From IMG/VR virus record IMGVR_UViG_3300042541_002829, positions 1 to 45,840 of that record: DNA of 45,840 nt. One strand, written 5' to 3'. Below are positions 889 through 40,747 of this stretch, in pieces. Made by a program: the position numbers and the translations under genes. The notes under the pieces are model-generated. The model did no database searches. It was not told the DNA's origin and was given only the letters and a program-made list of their open reading frames with translations. Numbering within the stretch: position 1 is the first letter of the stretch; each line of letters starts with the position of its first letter. The DNA comes from a virus.

Positions 889-1487
889 AAAATCCTTGTG
901 AAATGGATGTCCGCTTCCTTGCCTACATTGTCAGGGACAACACTACATGAGAAACTATTTGCCTCTAGCCAAGCGACGATATCTTCTACTCTGTTTTCTT
1001 GAGTTTTATATAGGTCGACTGTATAAGCGCCTTCGCACTTGCCCTTTAAAACAATCCCTATTTTTTCGCCAAGGCTCTTCAAAACTCTAAAATCGTTACC
1101 CTGAGCATCAACCCATAGGTAGTCAATTTTTTCAATTCCATTGTCAATTATGAAAGTATCAAGTCTTGTTGTTTGAACTTCGGCAGTGTGGGTTACCTGG
1201 AAGTCTGGTCTACCTTCCCATTTCTCGTGAATATCATCGGCAAATTCGTACAGAGAAGAACACCCCCAATCTCCGCCACCAGCAATATTGAAAACTTTTG
1301 TTGTTTCCTCAATATCTACCGCCTTGCCAATAAGGTGGAAATTGCTATCCTCCTTGAACCTATTTGACAAATGCTCTATTAGTTCTGGGGTTGGCTCAAA
1401 GGCCCAGACTTCATTATTTTTATCATTGATAAAATGCGCTGTGTCATTTCCATAGTTTGCACCGACCTCAACAATTATAGATTTCAT
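885..1487 (-). CDS. FkbM-family SAM-dependent methyltransferase
   Basis: About 200 residues. The SAM-binding start IVEVGANYGNDT is followed by FEPTPE and later LDTFIID and YLWVDAQGNDFRVLKSL, the characteristic FkbM methyltransferase motifs. Members O-methylate sugars or polyketides. An upstream in-frame start at 1538 is possible, but the ATG at 1487 overlaps the preceding stop as ATGA and gives the normal family N-terminus, so I use it. The neighbours are sugar nucleotidyl- and glycosyltransferases, so methylation of a glycan made or attached by this operon is the likely role; that is inference. Confidence 0.85.
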   Translation of the reverse strand: MKSIIVEVGANYGNDTAHFINDKNNEVWAFEPTPELIEHLSNRFKEDSNFHLIGKAVDIEETTKVFNIAGGGDWGCSSLYEFADDIHEKWEGRPDFQVTHTAEVQTTRLDTFIIDNGIEKIDYLWVDAQGNDFRVLKSLGEKIGIVLKGKCEGAYTVDLYKTQENRVEDIVAWLEANSFSCSVVPDNVGKEADIHFTRIL

Positions 1488-2857
1488 TTGTTGTTCTCTA
1501 AGTAGTAATTGAGGTCTTCTGGCGTTCCGATTCCCCACATCTTAGGGACTTCTTTAATTCGTATCTTTTTACCGTCCTGGATTGCTTCATTAAATACCGG
1601 GCAGACATAGAACTCATTATTTGTTCTAATATCTTTTTCAATCATTTGATTTGCATATTTGACATAATCCGAGCCGTGCTTCCAGTAGTAAATGCCAACC
1701 GTTGCATTGTCTGAAATTGGATTTTTTTCTGCCACCTCTGTTACAAGACCATCATCACCGAGCTTTGCATAAGACCATTTTGGATGGGTCGCCTTGAACG
1801 TGAGGATTCCACCGTCAATACCCTCGACTCCAAATGCATACAAGCAATCATTGCTACTCCACTCAACTATTTGGTCGGAGTTTGCCATCAATAATGGTTC
1901 CTCATTATCAATCAATCCAGATGCCAGCAAGGTTGTACATGCGGCCCCCTCTGTCATTCCATCAACCAAAACAATGTCGCACCCAGGCTTAATGAGACCT
2001 AGGACTTGTTTTAAGTTATATTTCTCGTAGTGTTCTTTTTGCACCAAGAAAATAAAATGAGCATCAATATTTAGGTTCTCAACTACGACCTGAATCATTG
2101 GCTTGCCATTTACCTCAATCAATGGTTTTGGAAATGTATAACCAGCCTGTGCGAAGCGTGAACCAGCCCCCGCCATCGGTATCAAAACATTCATCTTTTC
2201 ATTCCTCCATGCAACAGGCTTTTTGCCCCTTGTCTCAATTTCTTCAACGAAGCGTAGTAGGCGCTCCTTAATAAGGTCATCAGCATTCTTGATTGCATGG
2301 AGGTTTGCTCCAGAGCTGAGCGCTCCCTCTCTGCCAACATGTGAATCCTCAATAATTATAGTATTTGCTGGGCTTGCATCCAGCGAGACCATGCACTGCC
2401 AGTACATCTCTGGATGTGGCTTATGGTTCCTTACATCCTCGTTGCTCATGATGTAGCTCACATACTTAAGTACCCCGATTGCGTCAAGCGCCGTTATCAC
2501 GGTGTCTCTTATGGCATTTGAGGCAACAGCAATCCGCCACCCTTTTTCCTTGAGGGTCTGCATTATGTCAATCGCTACATAGTTTTTTGGGAAGTCTGCA
2601 AGTATCTTCAATGTTGCTTTTTGTTTATCTTCCCAGACTTGTTGATGCATTGATTCCGGAAGACCTTTTTCTTCTGTAAGCATCTTTAGCTTGGTTGTCG
2701 TCCCTAATCCGTCGTATTTTGACAGATGCTCTTCTTGGGAAATTATGTATTCTTTTCCAACCCTGCTCAGGGCGATATTGAGAGAATCATAGTGGACTTC
2801 TCTTGACTCAATTAAAACTCCATCAAGGTCAAAGATAATAAGAAAGTTATTTTTCAT
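1484..2857 (-). CDS. HAD-family phosphatase fused to sugar-phosphate nucleotidyltransferase
   Basis: 457 residues with two domains. Residues 1-210 are a HAD hydrolase of the beta-phosphoglucomutase-like type: nucleophile motif DLDGVLIES, then ASNAIRDT and IIIEDSHVGREGA. Residues about 220-457 are a nucleotidyltransferase: the signature-like GAGSRFAQAG followed by FPKPLIEVNGKPMIQ, later LLMANSDQ and MWGIGTPEDL. Together the two activities could dephosphorylate and activate a sugar phosphate (phosphorylated sugar to NDP-sugar). The start at 2857 overlaps the upstream gene by 11 bp; a longer start at 2914 exists but would lie mostly within that gene. The fusion of both enzymes in one phage polypeptide is unusual. 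Confidence 0.85.
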   Translation of the reverse strand: MKNNFLIIFDLDGVLIESREVHYDSLNIALSRVGKEYIISQEEHLSKYDGLGTTTKLKMLTEEKGLPESMHQQVWEDKQKATLKILADFPKNYVAIDIMQTLKEKGWRIAVASNAIRDTVITALDAIGVLKYVSYIMSNEDVRNHKPHPEMYWQCMVSLDASPANTIIIEDSHVGREGALSSGANLHAIKNADDLIKERLLRFVEEIETRGKKPVAWRNEKMNVLIPMAGAGSRFAQAGYTFPKPLIEVNGKPMIQVVVENLNIDAHFIFLVQKEHYEKYNLKQVLGLIKPGCDIVLVDGMTEGAACTTLLASGLIDNEEPLLMANSDQIVEWSSNDCLYAFGVEGIDGGILTFKATHPKWSYAKLGDDGLVTEVAEKNPISDNATVGIYYWKHGSDYVKYANQMIEKDIRTNNEFYVCPVFNEAIQDGKKIRIKEVPKMWGIGTPEDLNYYLENNK

Positions 2858-3503
2858 CTGGATTAGGTCCTGCGTGCCTGTGCCATTTATTGTGACGAAC
2901 AATGCTTTTTCCATTGCATTTCATTACATACTTGTCGCGGACTCGCATTGACCACTCAACATCTTCTGCTTCGTTCCATCCACGTGATTCGTCAAGAGGT
3001 TCTTCAATCATCACATGTTTTTTTACTATAAAAAAACCGCCCGATATATACATGTACTGAGTTTGGGTCCAGTCGTTGTAGTCAAGTGACCATGCCCGAC
3101 CGTGATTAGGCTTGTCCCAGAGAGACCAGTCCATAGGATTTCTGGCTCCATTTATTAGATACTGCGGGCATGAGCAAATATCCCAGTCCGTACCAAATGA
3201 CTTAAACTCCTCATACCAGCTTGCGTCAAATAGGTGGTAATCGTGCATCAGCACGATATTCTCGTACGTTGAATTCTGGGCAAGGATGTTTTTCTTCCTA
3301 GTAATCCACTTTGGTTTTACCGATTCGTCAAAGTCAATTTTTACAACCTCAGGGCCATCAACACCAGATGAGTCACCACCACCAACAATCAGTATTTCAA
3401 AACTGGGAATTTTTAGACTTTGAATATTTTTTACTATTTCGTTGAGACGCTGTTTATCTTCGTAAACTGTAATTATCCCAAACGTGAAAGATATATCACT
3501 CAT
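2847..3503 (-). CDS. Glycosyltransferase, family-2-like (GT-A)
   Basis: 218 residues. The N-terminal strand pattern FTFGIITVYED, then FEILIVGGGDSSG, is the nucleotide-sugar binding half of a GT-A fold. VLMHDYH supplies a metal-binding acidic position in place of the classic DXD. GWNEAEDVEWSMRVRDKY is the acceptor-side ED motif common in GT2-like enzymes. It lies between the GT-B gene and the HAD/nucleotidyltransferase gene in the same coupled operon. The target, either virion protein or host surface glycan, cannot be read from the sequence. Confidence 0.8.
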   Translation of the reverse strand: MSDISFTFGIITVYEDKQRLNEIVKNIQSLKIPSFEILIVGGGDSSGVDGPEVVKIDFDESVKPKWITRKKNILAQNSTYENIVLMHDYHLFDASWYEEFKSFGTDWDICSCPQYLINGARNPMDWSLWDKPNHGRAWSLDYNDWTQTQYMYISGGFFIVKKHVMIEEPLDESRGWNEAEDVEWSMRVRDKYVMKCNGKSIVRHNKWHRHAGPNPDEK

Positions 3504-26634: not shown

Positions 26635-28006
26635 CCAATACTCCTTTAAAAATTTTTCCAAGCCATTCTGCTACTGGTGCAGCTACTCCGTTACCGGTTT
26701 GCTTATACCTAGCTGTATCGGGCTGTTCTTTTCCGTCTGCACGCCATCTGGTGTGGTCCACGGGCCAGCCCATCAAAATCTCACATTCTTTTGGCAAAAG
26801 GCGTCTAACCACCATGTTCTGCAACACCCCGGTTGACTGTTTTGTACCAGCCCTGATTGCATGATGTATGCCGCCGTCAATAAGCTTGTCGTTGTATTCA
26901 TCGTAAGCAATTGCATCAATGACAAGGTTTTCACCCCTGCTTGACGGCACTCCACCGTCGCCACCACTACGAAGTGTCATTGCTATCCCGTCATTGAGTT
27001 CTTCGTTTTGTGCGACCATTGGAGTGTTTAGGCCACCAGTGCCCATAAACGCAGTCAATGTGTTGATGGTGTCGCCCTGCAAGCGAACCCCATCCTGTCT
27101 GTGCGGGTGGAACACTATTGGTGAATCATCGTTTTCGTAAGCAACACTTGGTGACTGCTGTGTAGCTTTGAGTGTTGGTGAATGGTCTGTAAATACATTT
27201 GCATTTGAGCCGAATTGGGTGTCAAAGGAATAAACTTCTTCATTTGTAACAATTGTTCCAGGGCCTTTTGCGTCACGGGCTCGCAATGTTAGAGCTTTGT
27301 CGGTTTCTTGCCATTTAGCAAAACCGCTGTTCTCAAATGCTAAGACTCCCTGTTCGCTACTGCTTCTAGTGCTTGACGAAGCTTTTCCGGCAACTTCTTG
27401 TTTCGCCTGTCTGCCCTTCTGAGAATGCCTTCGCATGCCCTCTTGGACAGGTAGTAACGGGAGGGGACTTCGCTCTGCGGCACCAATATCGTATGTAGCA
27501 CACACGAAGATGCGGCGCCGTCGCTGGGCGATTCCGTAGTACTGAGCATCAAGGATTGCCCAGTCAAGCGCCACGCACCCTGATTTGGCCATTTCATCGA
27601 GGACGACCCCAAAGTCAGCACCCTTGTTGGAAGTAAGTGCTCCGGGAACGTTTTCCCAGATTGCGAGTCGTGGGTATTGTCCATTTGTTGCATCACGCAT
27701 CTCCTTGATAATTCTTATTGCTTCATGAAATAAACCAGAGCGCTCACCAGAGAGGCCTTTTCGGACGCCAGCCACGGAGAGGTCCTGGCACGGGCTACCG
27801 AAGTTTATGCAGTCAACTGGTTCTATTTCATTGCCTTTAACATCTCTAACATCAAGATATTTAGGGATGTCTGGCCAGTGTTTCTTAAGTATCTGCTGGC
27901 ATGCGGGGTCCCATTCAACTTGCCACCGGCATTGCCAGTCGGCGGCTTCAAACCCAAGGTCGAAACCGCCGACTCCGGCGAAGAGGCTGCCAAATGTCAG
28001 GCTCAG
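26615..28006 (-). CDS. C5-cytosine DNA methyltransferase with apparent CTG start
   Basis: 463 residues. Motif I is LTFGSLFAGVGGFDLGFEA, motif IV GSPCQDLSVAG (catalytic Cys), motif VI ENVPG, motif VIII QRRRRIF and motif X GNGVAAPVAEWL. The target-recognition region carries repeated ALTLRA-like segments (KALTLRARD, AMTLRSGG) as in phage multi-target enzymes. The frame is open only from a TGA just upstream of motif I, and between them there is no ATG, GTG or TTG. CTG at 28006, overlapping the SSB stop as CTGA, is the best start; ATT slightly upstream is the alternative. A purely ATG/GTG/TTG search would truncate the gene at 27775 and lose motifs I-IV. Confidence 0.85.
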   Translation of the reverse strand: MSLTFGSLFAGVGGFDLGFEAADWQCRWQVEWDPACQQILKKHWPDIPKYLDVRDVKGNEIEPVDCINFGSPCQDLSVAGVRKGLSGERSGLFHEAIRIIKEMRDATNGQYPRLAIWENVPGALTSNKGADFGVVLDEMAKSGCVALDWAILDAQYYGIAQRRRRIFVCATYDIGAAERSPLPLLPVQEGMRRHSQKGRQAKQEVAGKASSSTRSSSEQGVLAFENSGFAKWQETDKALTLRARDAKGPGTIVTNEEVYSFDTQFGSNANVFTDHSPTLKATQQSPSVAYENDDSPIVFHPHRQDGVRLQGDTINTLTAFMGTGGLNTPMVAQNEELNDGIAMTLRSGGDGGVPSSRGENLVIDAIAYDEYNDKLIDGGIHHAIRAGTKQSTGVLQNMVVRRLLPKECEILMGWPVDHTRWRADGKEQPDTARYKQTGNGVAAPVAEWLGKIFKGVLDESTIS

Positions 28007-28482
28007 AAAGGCTCTTCCCCGAATGAATCAAAGTCATTGCGGGTTGTAGCTGGACGAGCGCCTGCTCGTGCTGGTGCTTTCTGTGCAGGACGAGCGTTGA
28101 CAGGGTTGCCAGAAGCATTCTCTGCCTTTGCTTTGCGCTGCAATGTCTCAATGTTGCGAACAGAAATACCGATTTCGTCTGCAAGAACGTTCACTGCTGA
28201 ACGCTTCTTACCTGTTTCTTTGTCGTCCCATGTTTCTTGCTCAAGACGACCGGTCACGGTCACACGAATTCCCTTTTCAAGAACTCGTACTGCATCTTCG
28301 GCAAGGTTTCGCCATGCGATTACATTGAAGTAGGAAGTCTTTTCCTGCTTTTCGCCCTTGGCGTCTGTCCAGAAGTTATTGACTGCTACGGAAAAAGAAA
28401 GCTTTCCTGCTCCTGAGTCAAAATAACGGATTTCTGGGTCCGCCGTTAGGTTCCCGGTTATTGTTACTGGCGCTGATGACAT
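28003..28482 (-). CDS. ssb: Single-stranded DNA-binding protein
   Basis: 159 residues. SSAPVTITGNLTADPEIRYF, then FSVAVNNFW, TSYFNVIAWRNLAEDAV, KGIRVTVTGRLEQETW, is the SSB OB-fold. A flexible Ala/Pro/Arg-rich linker ends in the acidic tip DFDSFGEEPF that recruits partner proteins. It coats single strands for the primase-helicase and recombination genes. AAGGAG precedes ATG, and a TTGACA-17-TAAGCT promoter lies at 28524-28552. Its stop overlaps the methyltransferase CTG. Confidence 0.95.
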   Translation of the reverse strand: MSSAPVTITGNLTADPEIRYFDSGAGKLSFSVAVNNFWTDAKGEKQEKTSYFNVIAWRNLAEDAVRVLEKGIRVTVTGRLEQETWDDKETGKKRSAVNVLADEIGISVRNIETLQRKAKAENASGNPVNARPAQKAPARAGARPATTRNDFDSFGEEPF

Positions 28483-28523: not shown

Positions 28524-28552
28524 AGCTTATCACCCATGATAGGCTCTGTCAA
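28524..28552 (-). promoter_or_regulatory. Strong promoter for SSB and downstream minus-strand genes
   Basis: On the minus strand TTGACA (28547-28552), 17 bp, TAAGCT (28524-28529). Confidence 0.75.
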
Positions 28553-28770
28553 TGGCTACTAATCCTTTTGAAATAAGGCTTTCGTTAACCAATGCGATTG
28601 CCAATTCGCTGTTTGATATTGCTTTTGACCAAAGCTTATCCGACGCTGAGCTTAAACAGCAACTTGAAGACTACAAAGATGTTGCGGCAATGATTCTTGA
28701 AGACCTTGGATGTGAAGTCCTTGAACTCAAAGAAGGAAAGATGATTTGCTCCTTCAGTCCACAAAAATAA
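28552..28770 (+). CDS. Hypothetical protein immediately before the array
   Basis: 72 residues. IANSLFDIAFDQSLSDAELK and AAMILEDLGCEVLELKEGKM, mixed helix and strand, not recognised. No ribosome site is visible; a TAGGCT 6 bases before ATG could make it leaderless. Its TAA is 2 bases before the first array motif, so the array may be its 3' extension. Confidence 0.6.
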   Translation: MATNPFEIRLSLTNAIANSLFDIAFDQSLSDAELKQQLEDYKDVAAMILEDLGCEVLELKEGKMICSFSPQK

Positions 28771-28772
28771 TA

Positions 28773-28991
28773 CGGGACTAGTAAGTGACAGGAGTAAATT
28801 GAAGCGCAGAAGAAGCGAAGCGACTGGTATTCCAAAGAAATACGGAAGGCCCCATTTACTCCATTTACGAATGGCTGTAGGCCGAAGGCCGTAAGCCTGA
28901 AGAGCGAGCAGCGTTAAATGGATAAATGGAGGGAGTATTGCTTTGGAATGCGAGCAAGCAATTTCGCCGTGGACTTTTATTCAAATATATT
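28773..28991 (+). ncRNA. Array unit 1 (219 bp), nested long hairpin
   Basis: Nested stems: AAATTG with CAATTT outermost; ATTCCAAAG (28829-28837) with CTTTGGAAT (28941-28949); CCATTTA-type arms with TAAATGG arms; at the tip GGCT-GTA-GGCC-GAA-GGCC-GTA-AGCC (28873-28897), a symmetric internal loop and GAA triloop. It shares TACGGAAG and GGGAGTA internal-loop strands with the unit at 29648. Confidence 0.7.
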
Positions 28992-29647
28992 CGGGACTAA
29001 AAACTGGGTAAGCATTTGCGTACGAAGTCGAAATGCTGCGCAGCTGTTTAGGGTGTTGTGCACGCCCAGCGTGCAAGCGAAGCGTCATAAGCCCTAATAG
29101 CGAAGCAACAGTTCGACTGTATGCAATGCGGTAATTGTGATGAGACTAAATACGGGACTAATAACTGCTGGGAGCAAACAGCGAAGTTGCTTTCTTTTTG
29201 AGCATGGCGGGAGCGAGAAGGTTCCAGGAGCGGAGTTATTTTACGATTAAAGAATTTAAGGGAACAAGCGAGGATGCGAGCGTTGAAGGACGAGAAGCTT
29301 GAATGCAAACAGTAAAAGTTCGGGACTAGAGACCATTCAAGCGGTGAGTCGTTTGAGGCGAGCTGCGATGCGCAGTGTACTTAAAGGATTTAAGAGTGAG
29401 ATAACGAGCATTCTGGAATTTCGAGCGTTCGCCGAGTGAGAAAAGAAGCACGAGCACAAGTTGTGATTTTTGTAGCAAGCGAAGCTTGCGGGACTATAGA
29501 GAATGTTTTATAAGCAATGTTTAACAAACAGCTTTACGAAGTGAAACCGGGCAGCTGCTGAAGGTTGGTGGTAGCTCTTTTGCGGACACCACCGGAAGCA
29601 TCTGCTGGTGAGCGAGTAGGCGTGGACTTTTATTTATCAAAAAAAAA

Positions 29648-29866
29648 CGGGACTAATAACCACATGGTTAGGCATGTGCCTGTTTTGAAAAGGAGTGGAG
29701 CGACTGTTGGTTTTTAAAGTTTACGGAAGAGGCTCTTTTTGTCTTTTTTGAGCGAGGCACGAGCGAAAGCGACGCTTGCGGAGCGGTAAAAAGAAAAAAA
29801 GAGAGGGAGTAAAATTTAACAAACCATGAAAAACGGCACTGCCGGGAGTTGTTAGATAAATTATTA
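29648..29866 (+). ncRNA. Array unit at 29648 (219 bp), homolog of unit 1 by structure
   Basis: Same length as unit 1, with the same GCGACTG, TACGGAAG and GGGAGTA segments, but the stem between them is TGGTTTTTAAA (29708-29718) with TTTAACAAACCA (29815-29826). An inner T-rich/A-rich stem replaces the CATTTA stems. It also contains GCGAAAGC. Confidence 0.65.
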
Positions 29867-30009
29867 CGGGACTTACTTCTATAAGCCAACAAGCATTGCG
29901 TCTTTCTGTTCGATGTGAATGAGCGTGCTGGTAACGAGGTACGAAGTTACGCAAAGCGAAAGAACAACGAAAAAGAAAACGCATGCGGTAGCTTTTATTT
30001 GAAACGCAT
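29867..30009 (+). ncRNA. Array unit at 29867 (143 bp), covaries with 30146
   Basis: Outer stem GCAT(T)GCGT(C)TTTCT from 29893 pairs with AGAAAACGCATGC ending near 29986. Inner stem GTAAC (29931-29935) pairs with GTTAC (29946-29950) around loop GAGGTACGAA. Confidence 0.7.
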
Positions 30010-30145
30010 CGGGACTAAAAACCAACAACAACGAGCATTCCGAACGAAGCCAGAGTAGCCGCCGAGGCTTCCCGTAGTTTGCGTAGGGAGCCTGGCGTCT
30101 ACCTGGCAAGCGAGGAGGCGAAGTGAAGCTTTATGTTTGCCTTTA

Positions 30146-30284
30146 CGGGACTAGTTTTTGCGAGCGAGCAAGCATTGCATTTTCGTTCGACTCGGAGTGA
30201 GCGTGCTGTTCCGAGGTACGAAGGAACGCAAAGCGAACGTAGGTCGAAAAGAAAATGTATGCGGTGAGTGAGTACTAAGAAAAA
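30146..30284 (+). ncRNA. Array unit at 30146 (139 bp), covaries with 29867
   Basis: Outer stem GCAT(T)GCATTTTC (from 30172) pairs with GAAAATGTATGC (30251-30262). Inner stem GTTCC (30208-30212) pairs with GGAAC (30223-30227) around the same loop GAGGTACGAA as the unit at 29867. Confidence 0.7.
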
Positions 30285-31453
30285 CGGGACTTATATGTTG
30301 CAGGACTGTTTGACGAGTCGCATAGCGACGAAGTGTTATTTTGTGTACCCAGAAGGAGGAGTAAGGTATGCGTAGGGAGATGCGAAGCAACGAAGTGCGA
30401 CAGCAATTCGGCGCTAGCATAAGCGAAGCGACCTTGCGACCGAACTTCTGGGGTAGCAAAATACACGAGAAGCGTTGCGACGAGGCGAATGTCCGGGATG
30501 TCGCAATCAAAGATAGATATTTATTGAAGTCTCGGGACTCAGTAGTTGTTGAATCAATGATGTATTTCTTTCCTTCAAACAGCTTAGACAGATAAGAAAT
30601 CTAGGCGATTCTAGAGAAGCGAAGCGAAGCTACGAATCGACGGTTACCGGGTTCAAAAGCGGAGGGTTGTTGAGACCGAGCAGCGGTCGAAAACATCCGT
30701 AGCGTTGAACTCGGTAAAGATTTCGTATATGGATAAGCGGGAACCATTCATTCAATGTCCGTACGGGGCTGAAAACCTAAACAGTTATACCCGTTATCCG
30801 GGATGAGGAAGCGTACTTCCCACGGCCCCCCGCTCAGCGAGCACGAAATCATTTTTGATTTCGATGCCTCGCTCCGTGGGAATTCGCTGGTGCCAAAGTT
30901 GTTAGATAAATCTGCACGGGACTTGATAACAAGATTTTGTAGCACCACGGGTGGAGCGATGACTTGAGTGCGAGTATCGCTGTAGTGGAGCGGGTAAATC
31001 GATGAAGCTAGCGAGCGATTTTTGTGCAACAAAATGAAGCGAGCGTTGCTGAAGAGATTTCTCGCGTAACGGAAGTGGACGAGCGACTCAGTCAGAGCGT
31101 AACTCCGTTGGTGGTGCAAAATCTGGTGAGCTTTATACAGCTTTCTACGGGGCTTAAGAACAAATCCGGGCGTTCGTTTCTTTCTGTGAACCAGAGGTAG
31201 TGAGCAACGGTCAAGCCTCTTGACGAAGCGAAGGCGATGCAGCGCAATCGGTTGCGTCGGCTCGCTAAATGAGTTAGCGATGACTAATCAATCATCTGTC
31301 GGATAATCGGGACTAGAGACTTGATGCCGGGAAGAAGCTAAATCATTTAGTGATGCGTAAGCAACGATTGAGCTGACGGAGACGAGCCAGAAGTCAAGGG
31401 CTTGCAGTTGCGAACGGTCTCTGGAGAACAGAAGAACGAACATGGTAATTAAT

Positions 31454-31619
31454 CGGGACTATAAAGTTCTTTCTTTTATCAGTAAGGGTTAGTTATCTCG
31501 ACCGAGCGAGTGTGCTGCGACGTTTCGGTGCGAGGAGTTCGGATTACTCCGAAACCGAGCATCGAGCGGAGCATCACGTGAGCGAGAGAGAGTAACGGTG
31601 GTTGTCCGGTGGATATTTA
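31454..31619 (+). ncRNA. Array unit at 31454 (166 bp)
   Basis: Stacked hairpins: GTTTCGG pairs with CCGAAAC around an inner GGAGT-TCGGATT-ACTCC hairpin. Outer arms GTG-TGCT with AGCA-TCAC and GTTA...CTC with GAG...TAAC complete a long imperfect rod. Confidence 0.6.
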
Positions 31620-31910
31620 CGGGACTAATAAGTAGCGAGCAGTTTCTGAGTACGCAACATTCAAAAGCGTAGTGAAGCATTTTCTGGATTGGAGACATCG
31701 CTAGGTACACGAAGGAGTGATGTTTGTGTTCGGACTTGCCGAAATACCAATCTATTGGTATGAGGTTGGTGGTCCGCAGGACTCACCAATCCGACAAGCA
31801 AACTGAAGCGACTGAAGTGTCCGCAGTGATGTCGGAGAGCCAGAATTGCGAACTTAGCGTTGAATGTGGAGTACTCGGAACGCAAGCGGTGACTGTTATT
31901 CAATTACCTA
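31620..31910 (+). ncRNA. Array unit at 31620 (291 bp), covaries with 32072
   Basis: Stem ATACCAA (31744-31750) with TTGGTAT (31755-31761). Then TTGGTG-GTCC (31766-31775), loop GCA, GGAC-T-CACCAA (31779-31789). Conserved CAAACTGAAGCGA follows, as in the unit at 32072. Confidence 0.7.
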
Positions 31911-32071
31911 CGGGACTAAAGAGTCTGAACAAGAGCGCTCTTCTGGGGCTATCCAGTAGCCAAGCGCAGCCTCGTGCGTGCGTGGGCAGCATGCCCTTGC
32001 GTGCACGGGCGAAGCGGGCGGTTGGATAGAAACAGAAAGTGCGTCTACCGGAGTTGTGTTCTTACTTATTG

Positions 32072-32366
32072 CGGGACTAGTGAATAGCGATGTTTCTCTT
32101 TTTACGCAAGAAGCCTGCGGAGCGAGCAGTTCCTGAATCGTAGCCATGGCCGAGGTGGACGAATGAGCGATGTTTGTTGTACGGGCTTGACTACATATCG
32201 AAGCAGGATTCGATATGTAGTTTGGCGGTTCGTAGAACTCGCCAATCCGGGAAACAAACTGAAGCGATTGAAGTACCCGACGCTATGGCGGAGAGGCAGG
32301 ATTGCGAGAGTAGCGAGGCTGTTTGCGGGAAAAGGAACAAGCGGGGATAGTTATTCAATAATCAAT
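32072..32366 (+). ncRNA. Array unit at 32072 (295 bp), covaries with 31620
   Basis: Stem CTACATATCG (32191-32200) with CGATATGTAG (32211-32220), a perfect 10-bp replacement for the 7-bp stem in the other unit. Then TTGGCG-GTTC (32222-32231), loop GTA, GAAC-T-CGCCAA (32235-32245). Confidence 0.7.
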
Positions 32367-33445
32367 CGGGACTAATAAGCGTGCGCATTTCGCGTAGGAA
32401 ACGGAGCTCGTGACGTAGCTTCGTGGAGCGCGGAAGTTCCTTCAAGCGAACACGAGCGGAGCACGAGCGGTGTTTCCGAGAGAATGCGGTAACCAAACAA
32501 ATTACTAGGTCAATGTTATTAAGGTCGGGACTAATTACCAATTTAGGCAAGTAAGCCATTTCATTGACTGAACAACCGTGAGCGAAGCTTTCCCAGGCCG
32601 AGGCACGAGCGCCGGGAAGCGGAGCGGTCGGTAGTGAAGTCATGAATGGCGTCGGTTAGTGCGATTGGTGGCTGAGCATGGCGTAGAAGGCAAGCGAAGT
32701 ACTTGCCGACGCGTGATAACGCATCGGTGCACCGAAGACGAGCCGCTTGTCGGCAGCGGATTCGAGTGCATACGAAGCGAGCCTGCGAAGCCGTGCTGTG
32801 ACACCAAGCAAGCACGACAGTTGTCATGGGGGCTTCGGGACTAAAAAGTAATTACAGGTAATCAATATTTCCGGGTGTTGAGACATTTCATCGCGCAACC
32901 AGCACCGAAGCGGAAAAACTGCTTGTAGCGAAGCGGAAAGCGTTTTGTAGCGGTGGTGCAGGTGGAGCGTGAATGTCGACAAAGCGAGATAAGACCGAGC
33001 CTTGGTGGAGCGAGGAACCCAGGTGAAGCCAAGACGAAGTCTGGCGTAATCTGGGCTGCGAAGCGGAGCCAGTGTGAGGGTGAAATTGAGCGTGGATTGT
33101 TATGTCGGTCATCGGGACTAATAAATAACGATTGCGGCTGTCGAATAGTTATTTCATCCGCAGAACCACCCGTAGTGAGAAAACTGATGAGCACATTTAT
33201 GGGCGAAATCGTTTTCGAACGGGGGGTGGTGAGCGGTGAATAACGTCAAGCGCAATAAAACTGAGCCCAAGGTGGAGCGAGAAGCCGGGCGCTGCCACGC
33301 CGAAGGGTGGCCGCGTCTGGATACGAAGCGCAACCTGAGGCGAGGTTGCAATGGAGCAGGGACTGTGATTAGAGTCGGGACTGAAAGACATGCAGCAGCA
33401 GGGCTGTTCTACCTATTAGTATCTCTTTCGCCAGGATGGAGAAAA

Positions 33446-33679
33446 ATGATGCAAAATGAAATGACTATGACACGCAGAAAAAGTAAACCACAGTCCCGTA
33501 CGGAATTATGGCGTTGCCCCAACTGCGGGCATGAGGTTAGTATTGGCGTTCCTGCAATGCAAGCGTCCTGCAGTAATAAAGAAAAGCACACTTCTAGCAC
33601 TGTTGAGATGGAATTAGTCCATTCTTTTTGGGATGACAACATCAATGGTCGGAACGTCAAGTTTTATGAGCGCTCCTAA
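33446..33679 (+). CDS. Small zinc-ribbon-like protein at the array end
   Basis: 77 residues from ATG 33446, with GGATGGAG just upstream. LWRCPNCGHEVSIGVPAMQA followed by SCSNKEKH gives C-x2-C ... C...H, a zinc ribbon. The open frame extends back to 33236, but that part lies in array DNA and is not believed. The coding sequence contains AGTCCCGTAC, an exact complement to the array head GTACGGGACT. Its TAA overlaps the first block of element E1. Confidence 0.7.
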   Translation: MMQNEMTMTRRKSKPQSRTELWRCPNCGHEVSIGVPAMQASCSNKEKHTSSTVEMELVHSFWDDNINGRNVKFYERS

Positions 33680-33801
33680 GCCCCGCCCGACTTCTTCGCA
33701 AGCCATCTCCAGGCAATAAAATAAGCCAAACCCCATACGGGACTCCAGACCGGTTTTCCCGGGGTTTTCAAAAGCAAAAAACAAATGACGGTGGCGGATG
33801 A
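33679..33801 (+). repeat. Dispersed element E1
   Basis: AGCCCCG (33679-33685), CGGGACTCCAGACC (from 33738) and ATGACGGTGGCGGATGA (33785-33801). It lies between the zinc-ribbon gene and the promoter at 33822. Confidence 0.7.
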
Positions 33802-36285: not shown

Positions 36286-36294
36286 ACACTATTC

Positions 36295-36445
36295 AGCCCC
36301 GCTCCGCTCTTCTCTCTGCCGGCCGGTGCGCACGTAGAGCTATTTAGCCCCGCCCCCCACTTTCCCCCCAGCCCCAGACCCCTAGAAACAACTTTCGGGA
36401 CTGCGTTTCGCTCTTTGCGACGACTTGATGACGGTGGCGGATGAC
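36295..36445 (+). repeat. Dispersed element E2 (double first block)
   Basis: AGCCCCG at 36295 and again at 36346, CGGGACTGC at 36396, GATGACGGTGGCGGATGAC at 36427-36445. No gene lies from 36286 to 36770 apart from E2, E3 and the promoter. Confidence 0.7.
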
Positions 36446-37114: not shown

Positions 37115-37160
37115 GTGGACCAGTTTTTCAGGTCTTGATAGTGGACCAGTTTTTCAGGTC
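37115..37160 (+). repeat. Two direct copies of a 20-bp sequence with internal dyad
   Basis: GTGGACCAGTTTTTCAGGTC at 37115-37134 and 37141-37160, 26 bp apart centre to centre. Each copy carries GACC ... GGTC arms, like a repressor site. It lies 30 bp before the -35 box at 37190. Confidence 0.65.
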
Positions 37161-37189
37161 AAAAAAAAACAAAAAATGTTTGGAAATGT

Positions 37190-40083: not shown

Positions 40084-40602
40084 ATGTTCAATAAACTTGG
40101 CACGGTGGTTGATGACCTCGTTACTCCTGTAGATAGACCAGTAAAAACGTTTGTACTACAAAGGGTTTGTGAACAAGCAGTTGCTTTTTTGCAAATGTCG
40201 CGCCAGGATGTTTTCATGAATGAAAATTTGTTTGGTTTTGATGAGCCGGCAGCGCCCCGGGAAACAAAATCAAAGAAATCAAAACGTGCGAAGTCAAAGC
40301 TTGTAAGCCCCGCTGAGATTCAACAGGTTTTCGATGAATGGCTACGGTGGTGTAAGACAAGCAGCCGGGGTGTTCGGCCGAAGCTTTCAGAAGAACGAAG
40401 CATAATTATCGGCTCTGCGATTTATGATTACGGATTAACTGATTGTTTGCTTGCGGTTCAAGGCTGCAGCTTGTCTTCTTGGCACATGGGAGAAAATCCA
40501 ACAGGAACCAGGTACGACGATATTGAATTAATCCTTCGTGATGCAAAGCACGTCGAGCGATTTGCCGGCCTGGCAGCTGCAGAAGAAGCTAAAAACGATT
40601 GA
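40084..40602 (+). CDS. Replication-protein-like, conserved phage C-terminal domain
   Basis: 172 residues, or about 128 if translation starts at ATG 40216 (MNENLFGFDEPAAP). A basic linker (KSKKSKRAKSK) precedes a domain with VFDEWLRWCKTSSRGVRPKL, then IYDYGLTDCLLAVQGC and SLSSWHMGENPTGTRYDDIE, LILRDAKHVERFAGL. This W-H-M-G-x-N ... YDDIxLILRDAxHxERF pattern is the conserved C-terminal region of many phage replisome-organiser proteins. It probably loads the helicase together with the gene at 40845. Confidence 0.75.
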   Translation: MFNKLGTVVDDLVTPVDRPVKTFVLQRVCEQAVAFLQMSRQDVFMNENLFGFDEPAAPRETKSKKSKRAKSKLVSPAEIQQVFDEWLRWCKTSSRGVRPKLSEERSIIIGSAIYDYGLTDCLLAVQGCSLSSWHMGENPTGTRYDDIELILRDAKHVERFAGLAAAEEAKND

Positions 40603-40613
40603 CAAAGCTTTTA

Positions 40614-40747
40614 AGCCCCGCTACAATTACCGGATGGCCAAAGATGACGTGCAGATTCAAGTCGGGACTGCACAGTCTGCTGGTATTCAGTTGTCGGGAC
40701 TGCATACCAGCTGGCCGAGGTCTTTTTTGATGACGGCGGCGTATGAG
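40614..40747 (+). repeat. Dispersed element E6 (double middle block)
   Basis: AGCCCCG at 40614, CGGGACTGCACAG at 40663, CGGGACTGCATACC at 40695, GATGACGGCGGCGTATGAG at 40729-40747. GCTGGTAT and ATACCAGC form a stem that displays the second CGGGACT in its loop. Confidence 0.7.

Follow-up and report, generated by a model that had tools for sequence, protein, structure and literature searches.

Rod-folding units in tandem under a shared CGGGRCT head: evidence for a modular non-coding RNA array beside a zinc-ribbon gene in large tailed phages

What kind of element is formed by a run of 24 copies of one short motif, all in the same orientation and with no gene among them, in the DNA of a phage? 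The question arises from a viral fragment in IMG/VR (one record, 45,840 bases), the whole of which we refer to as the window. Between positions 28773 and 33382, CGGGRCT occurs 24 times on the plus strand—22 times as CGGGACT and twice, at 30764 and 31148, as CGGGGCT—and not once on the minus strand. The first of these heads (CGGGACTAGTAAGT) occupies 28773–28786; those numbered 2 to 12 start at 28992, 29153, 29321, 29489, 29648, 29867, 30010, 30146, 30285, 30533, and 30764; those numbered 13 to 23 at 30917, 31148, 31308, 31454, 31620, 31911, 32072, 32367, 32526, 32836, and 33113; and the last lies at 33376–33382. The array proper (28773–33375, plus strand) accordingly comprises 23 complete units of 136–310 nt, in each of which a rod-shaped fold comes after the head, so that the number, orientation, and spacing of the heads given in a preliminary description of this DNA are borne out by the motif counts. 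That description had spoken of an eight-base word of non-chance density, nearly confined to one strand. The density is indeed beyond chance, CGGGACT being present 31 times in the whole window against 3.5 expected, a count attained in none of 100 shuffles; but the eighth base is an A in only 71% of the heads, and the full head is better written as CGGGRCT-N4-A(G/C)(T/C), which matches 26 sites in the window where 0.4 would be expected. The strand restriction, for its part, holds inside the array but not in the adjacent early-gene region (33.7–41.7 kb), where the motif is found on both strands; from 1 to 28.7 kb it is absent. The array was also said to be free of genes, and among its 35 ORFs of at least 50 aa none was open, conserved, and full length across all four relatives compared.

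Upstream of the array is a 72-aa gene (28552–28770, plus strand), whose stop codon lies 2 nt before the first head, and before it the gene for the single-strand DNA-binding protein, ssb (28003–28482, minus strand; phrog_44, E 1.3e-34), which diverges from the array. Directly downstream of the last head comes zn76 (33449–33679, plus strand), encoding a 76-aa zinc-ribbon-like protein with the pattern CPxC ... C-x-N-x3-H. The array is thus flanked by two plus-strand genes, as an early RNA might be, and its own plus strand is purine-rich, with a GC skew of about +0.2. Neither a consensus promoter ahead of the array nor a fixed -10/-35 pattern at each head was found.

The presence of homologous arrays in related phages had been named beforehand as a test, and such arrays do exist. 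Relatives were found by scanning for three heads in a row, and then by a scan with ssb. The former revealed many contigs that share the array, with the same order and spacing upon alignment; the latter, an array in every close relative long enough to show one (SSB 93–100% identical) as well as in L076/L077 (SSB 73%), whereas in the other relatives no array lay beside ssb. The more distant phage L077 carries 28 heads at the same ssb-side location, the ssb gene anchoring the synteny of the array both there and in the clade of the window. A third lineage, G007 (SSB 68%), has 32 heads, all on the plus strand, spread over some 14 kb of non-coding DNA whose distance from ssb is about 20 kb or more, so that the arrays range from 4.6 to 14 kb in length. 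Many of the first three-head matches were discarded as unrelated repeats with an even spacing of 72, 144, or 150 bp; several of these lie in frame and are likely to be repeats within proteins. A paired-head scan of genome contigs gave no array, scans for two full heads 145–175 or 180–210 apart returned only arrays of the same two lineages together with two unrelated repeats, and GA-word patterns were judged insufficiently specific to serve as an array finder. The carrier is a large tailed phage of an uncultured family, and its hosts are probably actinobacteria, to judge from the related phage proteins and from genes recognized by eye as WhiB-like.

That the DNA between the motifs folds into hairpins was indicated by the minimum free energies, whose z-scores averaged -3.0 in the 24 units and -0.4 in control pieces; in L077 the value was -2.4, and in G007 only -0.8 as against -0.2 in the coding DNA of that phage. 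Covariation above background, likewise named in advance as a test, was far above both kinds of control. In 23 alignments of orthologous units, double changes preserved pairing in 241 instances and broke it in 77, whereas the same alignments with the structure slid out of register gave 61–85 kept and 87–116 broken, all these counts being of non-independent events since the sequences are related. The paralogous units 17 and 19 (31620–31910 and 32072–32366), which form the best family (10 sequences, 71 pairs), had 98.4% of the cells paired, and 73 double-changed cells as compared to 29.7 in shuffles—none of 500 reaching 73—and at most 10 in slid controls; here too the sequences are related and the counted changes not independent. 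Compensatory changes thus exceed both shuffled and slid controls, as is required of a structured RNA; the folding has been preserved by evolution, under selection, and there is good support for an array of modular, structured RNA.

Which strand folds, and in what form, can be read from the changes on one side of a pair only. In the 23 alignments these produced 260 G-U against 157 A-C combinations when scored on the plus strand, the relation being reversed on the minus, while in units 17 and 19 there were 63 G-U cells and 4 A-C cells on the plus strand. Tolerance of G-U suits RNA better than single-stranded DNA, and the excess therefore designates the plus strand as the folded one and, on grounds of base-pair energetics, favors its being read as RNA. 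The best-resolved rod, that of unit 17, has 71 pairs in 12 helices, the head and the last ~24 nt of units 17 and 19 remaining outside the consensus rod. In the window the rods contain 30 U bulges in the 5' arm (5 in shuffles) along with internal loops of the types GA/GA (20 versus 2) and GNA/GNA (22 versus 0), which excesses are similar in L047, L063, and L077. The word GCGA(A)GC, moreover, has a density of 5.4/kb on the plus strand of the window array and 0.2/kb on the minus, and of 6.6 and 0.4 in the G007 array, amounting to a strand ratio of about 17–25 fold in those two arrays and about 7 fold in L077.

The units turn over as wholes. Both L009 and L050 lack unit 7 (29867–30009), a paralog of unit 9 (30146–30284), exactly from one head to the next; units 13–15 (30917–31453) are missing in the same manner in L050/L063; and a relative of unit 23 (33113–33375) is found between units 17 and 18 in L061, L047, and L065, having therefore moved. 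Of the breakpoints in the array alignments, 30 of 61 fall at or near a head, against 13% expected, a comparison whose P value is indicative only, the genomes being related and the breakpoints non-independent. Unit 1 (28773–28991) is 97% identical to that of L047, a phage otherwise at about 79–88%, and 84% identical to that of L053, despite the latter's 97.8% identity with the window over 6.5 kb; this pattern shows a mosaic ancestry through exchange between phages. The units had been described as unrepeated in sequence, and this is not so of the pairs 7/9 and 17/19, which are diverged paralogs; not all units differ. A covariance model of units 7/9 gave weak matches to other units of the same arrays and none in L077 or G007, so that a common ancestry of single units across the lineages is not supported.

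A constant neighbor is zn76, whose homologs are located directly downstream of the array in all three lineages—the window clade, L077, and G007—and in G007 the gene still adjoins the array, though both are far from ssb. A profile search of 27 records, many of them fragments, recovered zn76 in all five array genomes at E < 1e-25, weakly in four with no array seen, and in none of the other 18; a viral scan added to the same array phages a few distant contigs (L245–L248, L250) with no adjoining CGGGRCT array. The family had no convincing counterpart in Pfam or PHROGs, and the structure model (pLDDT 70) gave no significant match in a fold search, the best of the non-significant ones being ribosomal zinc-ribbon chains. 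The homolog of the 72-aa gene in L077 likewise abuts the first head, but according to tblastn with the L077 protein as the query this gene stays beside ssb in relatives with or without the array, and because it keeps to ssb regardless, the array and zn76 give the impression of moving together as a single module. In one of the phages with a distant zinc-ribbon homolog (L246), the reverse strand at about 1000–3100 consists of 2 kb of low-complexity DNA made up of GGCCAGGGC / GGCAGGCAGG, with a GC content of 0.75.

Of the three hypotheses in the preliminary description, that of a processed array of phage RNAs fits best, in that the folded strand is the plus strand and the array stands between two plus-strand genes, with processing at the heads as a putative step. 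We consider the chances about even that the locus is an array of non-coding RNA genes, a chain of rods with heads that are cut or bound by one factor and with the zinc-ribbon protein as partner. The array would be transcribed on the plus strand as part of a rightward, early-side transcription unit, and the transcript would fold into 23 or more independent rods of about 140–310 nt, joined by largely unpaired linkers that bear the head CGGGACU-N4-A(G/C)(U/C). The head would constitute the signal common to all units, at which that factor would cut or bind; the rods would serve as scaffolds that can replace one another, with tandem G-A loops and 5'-arm U bulges at regular intervals; and the zn76 product, encoded directly downstream, would be the best candidate partner. 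Several observations speak against this proposal. A rough folding of the whole array did not predict the heads to be less paired than the rest of the sequence, nor did local folding lend support to their being open loops; the occurrence of the motif in both orientations in the early region points to recognition at the DNA level too; a search ahead of the array turned up no consensus promoter; the four genomes in which no array was seen have weak zinc-ribbon homologs; and the fold of G007 is just slightly more stable than that of its shuffles.

A serious competitor is titration, though we hold it to be rather unlikely. According to this alternative, heads and rods would form a repertoire of RNA sponges or decoys that sequester some protein of the host or the phage, whether a defence factor, a nuclease, or a regulator, and the fast turnover of units would reflect an arms race instead of a scaffolding role or the supply of individual RNAs. 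The presence of one short word 24 to 32 times per putative transcript, the persistence of structure while sequence drifts, and the gain, loss, and swapping of units between phages, as in unit 1, are what such a sponge would lead one to expect, but a plain sponge has no need of selection on nearly every pair of the rods. Sponge RNAs of the CsrB/RsmZ type are a few hundred nt long and have GGA loops. The array resembles them in carrying many copies of a short word in a structured RNA, which could titrate a protein; it differs in that its word opens each rod and in that its RNA would measure 4.6–14 kb.

We attach a smaller probability to a regulatory array acting at the DNA level, in which CGGGRCT would bind a repressor or other protein and be massed, like stoperators, to titrate that protein or to stop transcription. 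This explanation is retained because the motif occurs on both strands of the early region, in intergenic DNA. At 36288–36402 the window has an outward-facing pair, with CGGGGCT on the minus strand at 36301 and 36352 and CGGGACT on the plus at 36396, and similar pairs are located at 33685/33738, 36563/36615, 36943/37014, and 40620/40663. The early regions of the window and of array-less relatives contain such pairs as AGYCCCG-N17-19 or N24-27-CGGGRCT, capable of forming hairpins, and in G001 34 of the 35 copies in 172 kb are within the first 16 kb. Since the pairs also exist where no array does, the arrays may reuse an older early-region signal. Among phages without an array, L251–L254, L096, L089, and L092 possess intergenic-looking AGYCCCG-N-CGGGRCT hairpins with two preferred spacers, 17–19 and 24–27. 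The site at 40620 on the minus strand lies inside a promoter-like stretch, TTGACA-17-TACAAT (40580–40640, recognized by eye), whose spacer contains the minus-strand motif CGGGGCTTAAAAGC. What a DNA-level array leaves unexplained are the covarying rods, the strand preference, and the plus-only orientation inside the array. The Cluster A stoperator consensus, GGTGGMTGTCAAG, is not enriched in the window, which has 2 matches with two mismatches where 1.7 are expected. In Cluster A mycobacteriophages stoperators are a short asymmetric motif repeated across the phage genome (PMC9283540), and in that respect they are like CGGGRCT; unlike the array, they have no covarying RNA rods between the sites. 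A strong avoidance of CGGGRCT elsewhere was dropped as an argument, because against a higher-order expectation it was only moderate (1 versus 7 in 156 kb of G001) and was shared by the array-less G013 (8 versus 25). As separate observations, several plus-strand CGGGACT sites between 33738 and 40760 precede a further common element, (TTTT)GATGACGGTGGCGGATGA, located at ~33.8, 36.4, 36.6, 37.05, and 40.7 kb, and at 37115–37162 there is a direct repeat of GTGGACCAGTTTTTCAGGTC, its two copies a few bases apart.

We regard it as improbable that the units move as cassettes through the action of an enzyme at the heads, possibly by way of folded single-stranded DNA. Units joined at a short conserved sequence are gained, lost, and moved whole at that shared site, as are integron cassettes, and this part of the cassette hypothesis stands on the exact head-to-head losses, the displaced unit 23, and the breakpoints near heads. 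The integron-like enzyme, in contrast, is not supported, since no tyrosine integrase (PF00589) was detected in the window or in three relatives, records that are possibly incomplete, with all controls positive; array units, unlike cassettes, carry no genes; the 7–14 bases shared by the heads would suffice for ordinary short-homology recombination with selection for whole units; and the tolerance of G-U speaks against a DNA fold. Least probable of all is a replication origin or packaging locus made of DNA hairpins, for which the neighboring ssb, the switch in gene direction and GC skew at this point of the window, and the strong strand asymmetry might be adduced, but which must contend with the G007 array far from ssb, with a skew in large part created by the array itself, and with a G-U tolerance favoring RNA.

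The array does not fit the description of a CRISPR or a tRNA array, nor does it match a named RNA. Instead of near-identical repeats of ~24–48 nt with spacers of similar length, it has 7–14 shared nt and units of 136–310 nt; the Rfam scan detected three tRNAs, all outside the array; and no covariance model, GOLLD and ROOL included, matched the array at its gathering score or above chance at a relaxed threshold. GOLLD and ROOL are non-coding RNAs from phages and prophages, of large size, elaborate fold, and unknown function (PMC12286853), and the array is likewise large, ornate, and non-coding; they are, however, single RNAs of about 600–800+ nt, each of one recognizable family, whereas the array has 23 or more mostly unrelated rods of 140–310 nt with only the head in common. 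The Pleft RNA of the mycobacteriophages L5, D29, and StarStuff, an abundant non-coding RNA that these actinobacterial phages make from their early lytic promoter (PMC5712189), resembles the predicted early-side RNA of the locus; but Pleft is about 500 bp long, with neither an array nor shared heads. The guide arrays of TIGR-Tas are also phage-borne tandem RNA arrays (PMC12045711), from which the present one is set apart by its architecture, in having no repeated scaffold with short interchangeable spacers.

An RNA locus that expands as folded modules with one head in common are added and swapped, and to which a small protein is linked, was absent from Rfam and from the open papers searched, which absence is not proof of novelty. 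We suggest, tentatively, that a transcript of 4.6–14 kb with dozens of modular, mostly non-homologous rod RNAs, all under the CGGGACU head, might form, with a dedicated zinc-ribbon protein, a large ribonucleoprotein evolving by module shuffling, and hence a new class of phage RNA locus. The locus supplies a testable head sequence, a rod architecture, and a candidate partner protein. Phage genomes are compact, and yet in one relative about 14 kb of the record, which totals 98 kb, is given over to predicted non-coding RNA, from which the phage may derive some benefit. The same phage has, at the start of IMGVR_UViG_3300020214_000005 (L223:60–4200), about 4 kb of low-complexity DNA, almost A-free on one strand, with an AT skew to -0.94 and words such as GACACGGCACGG.
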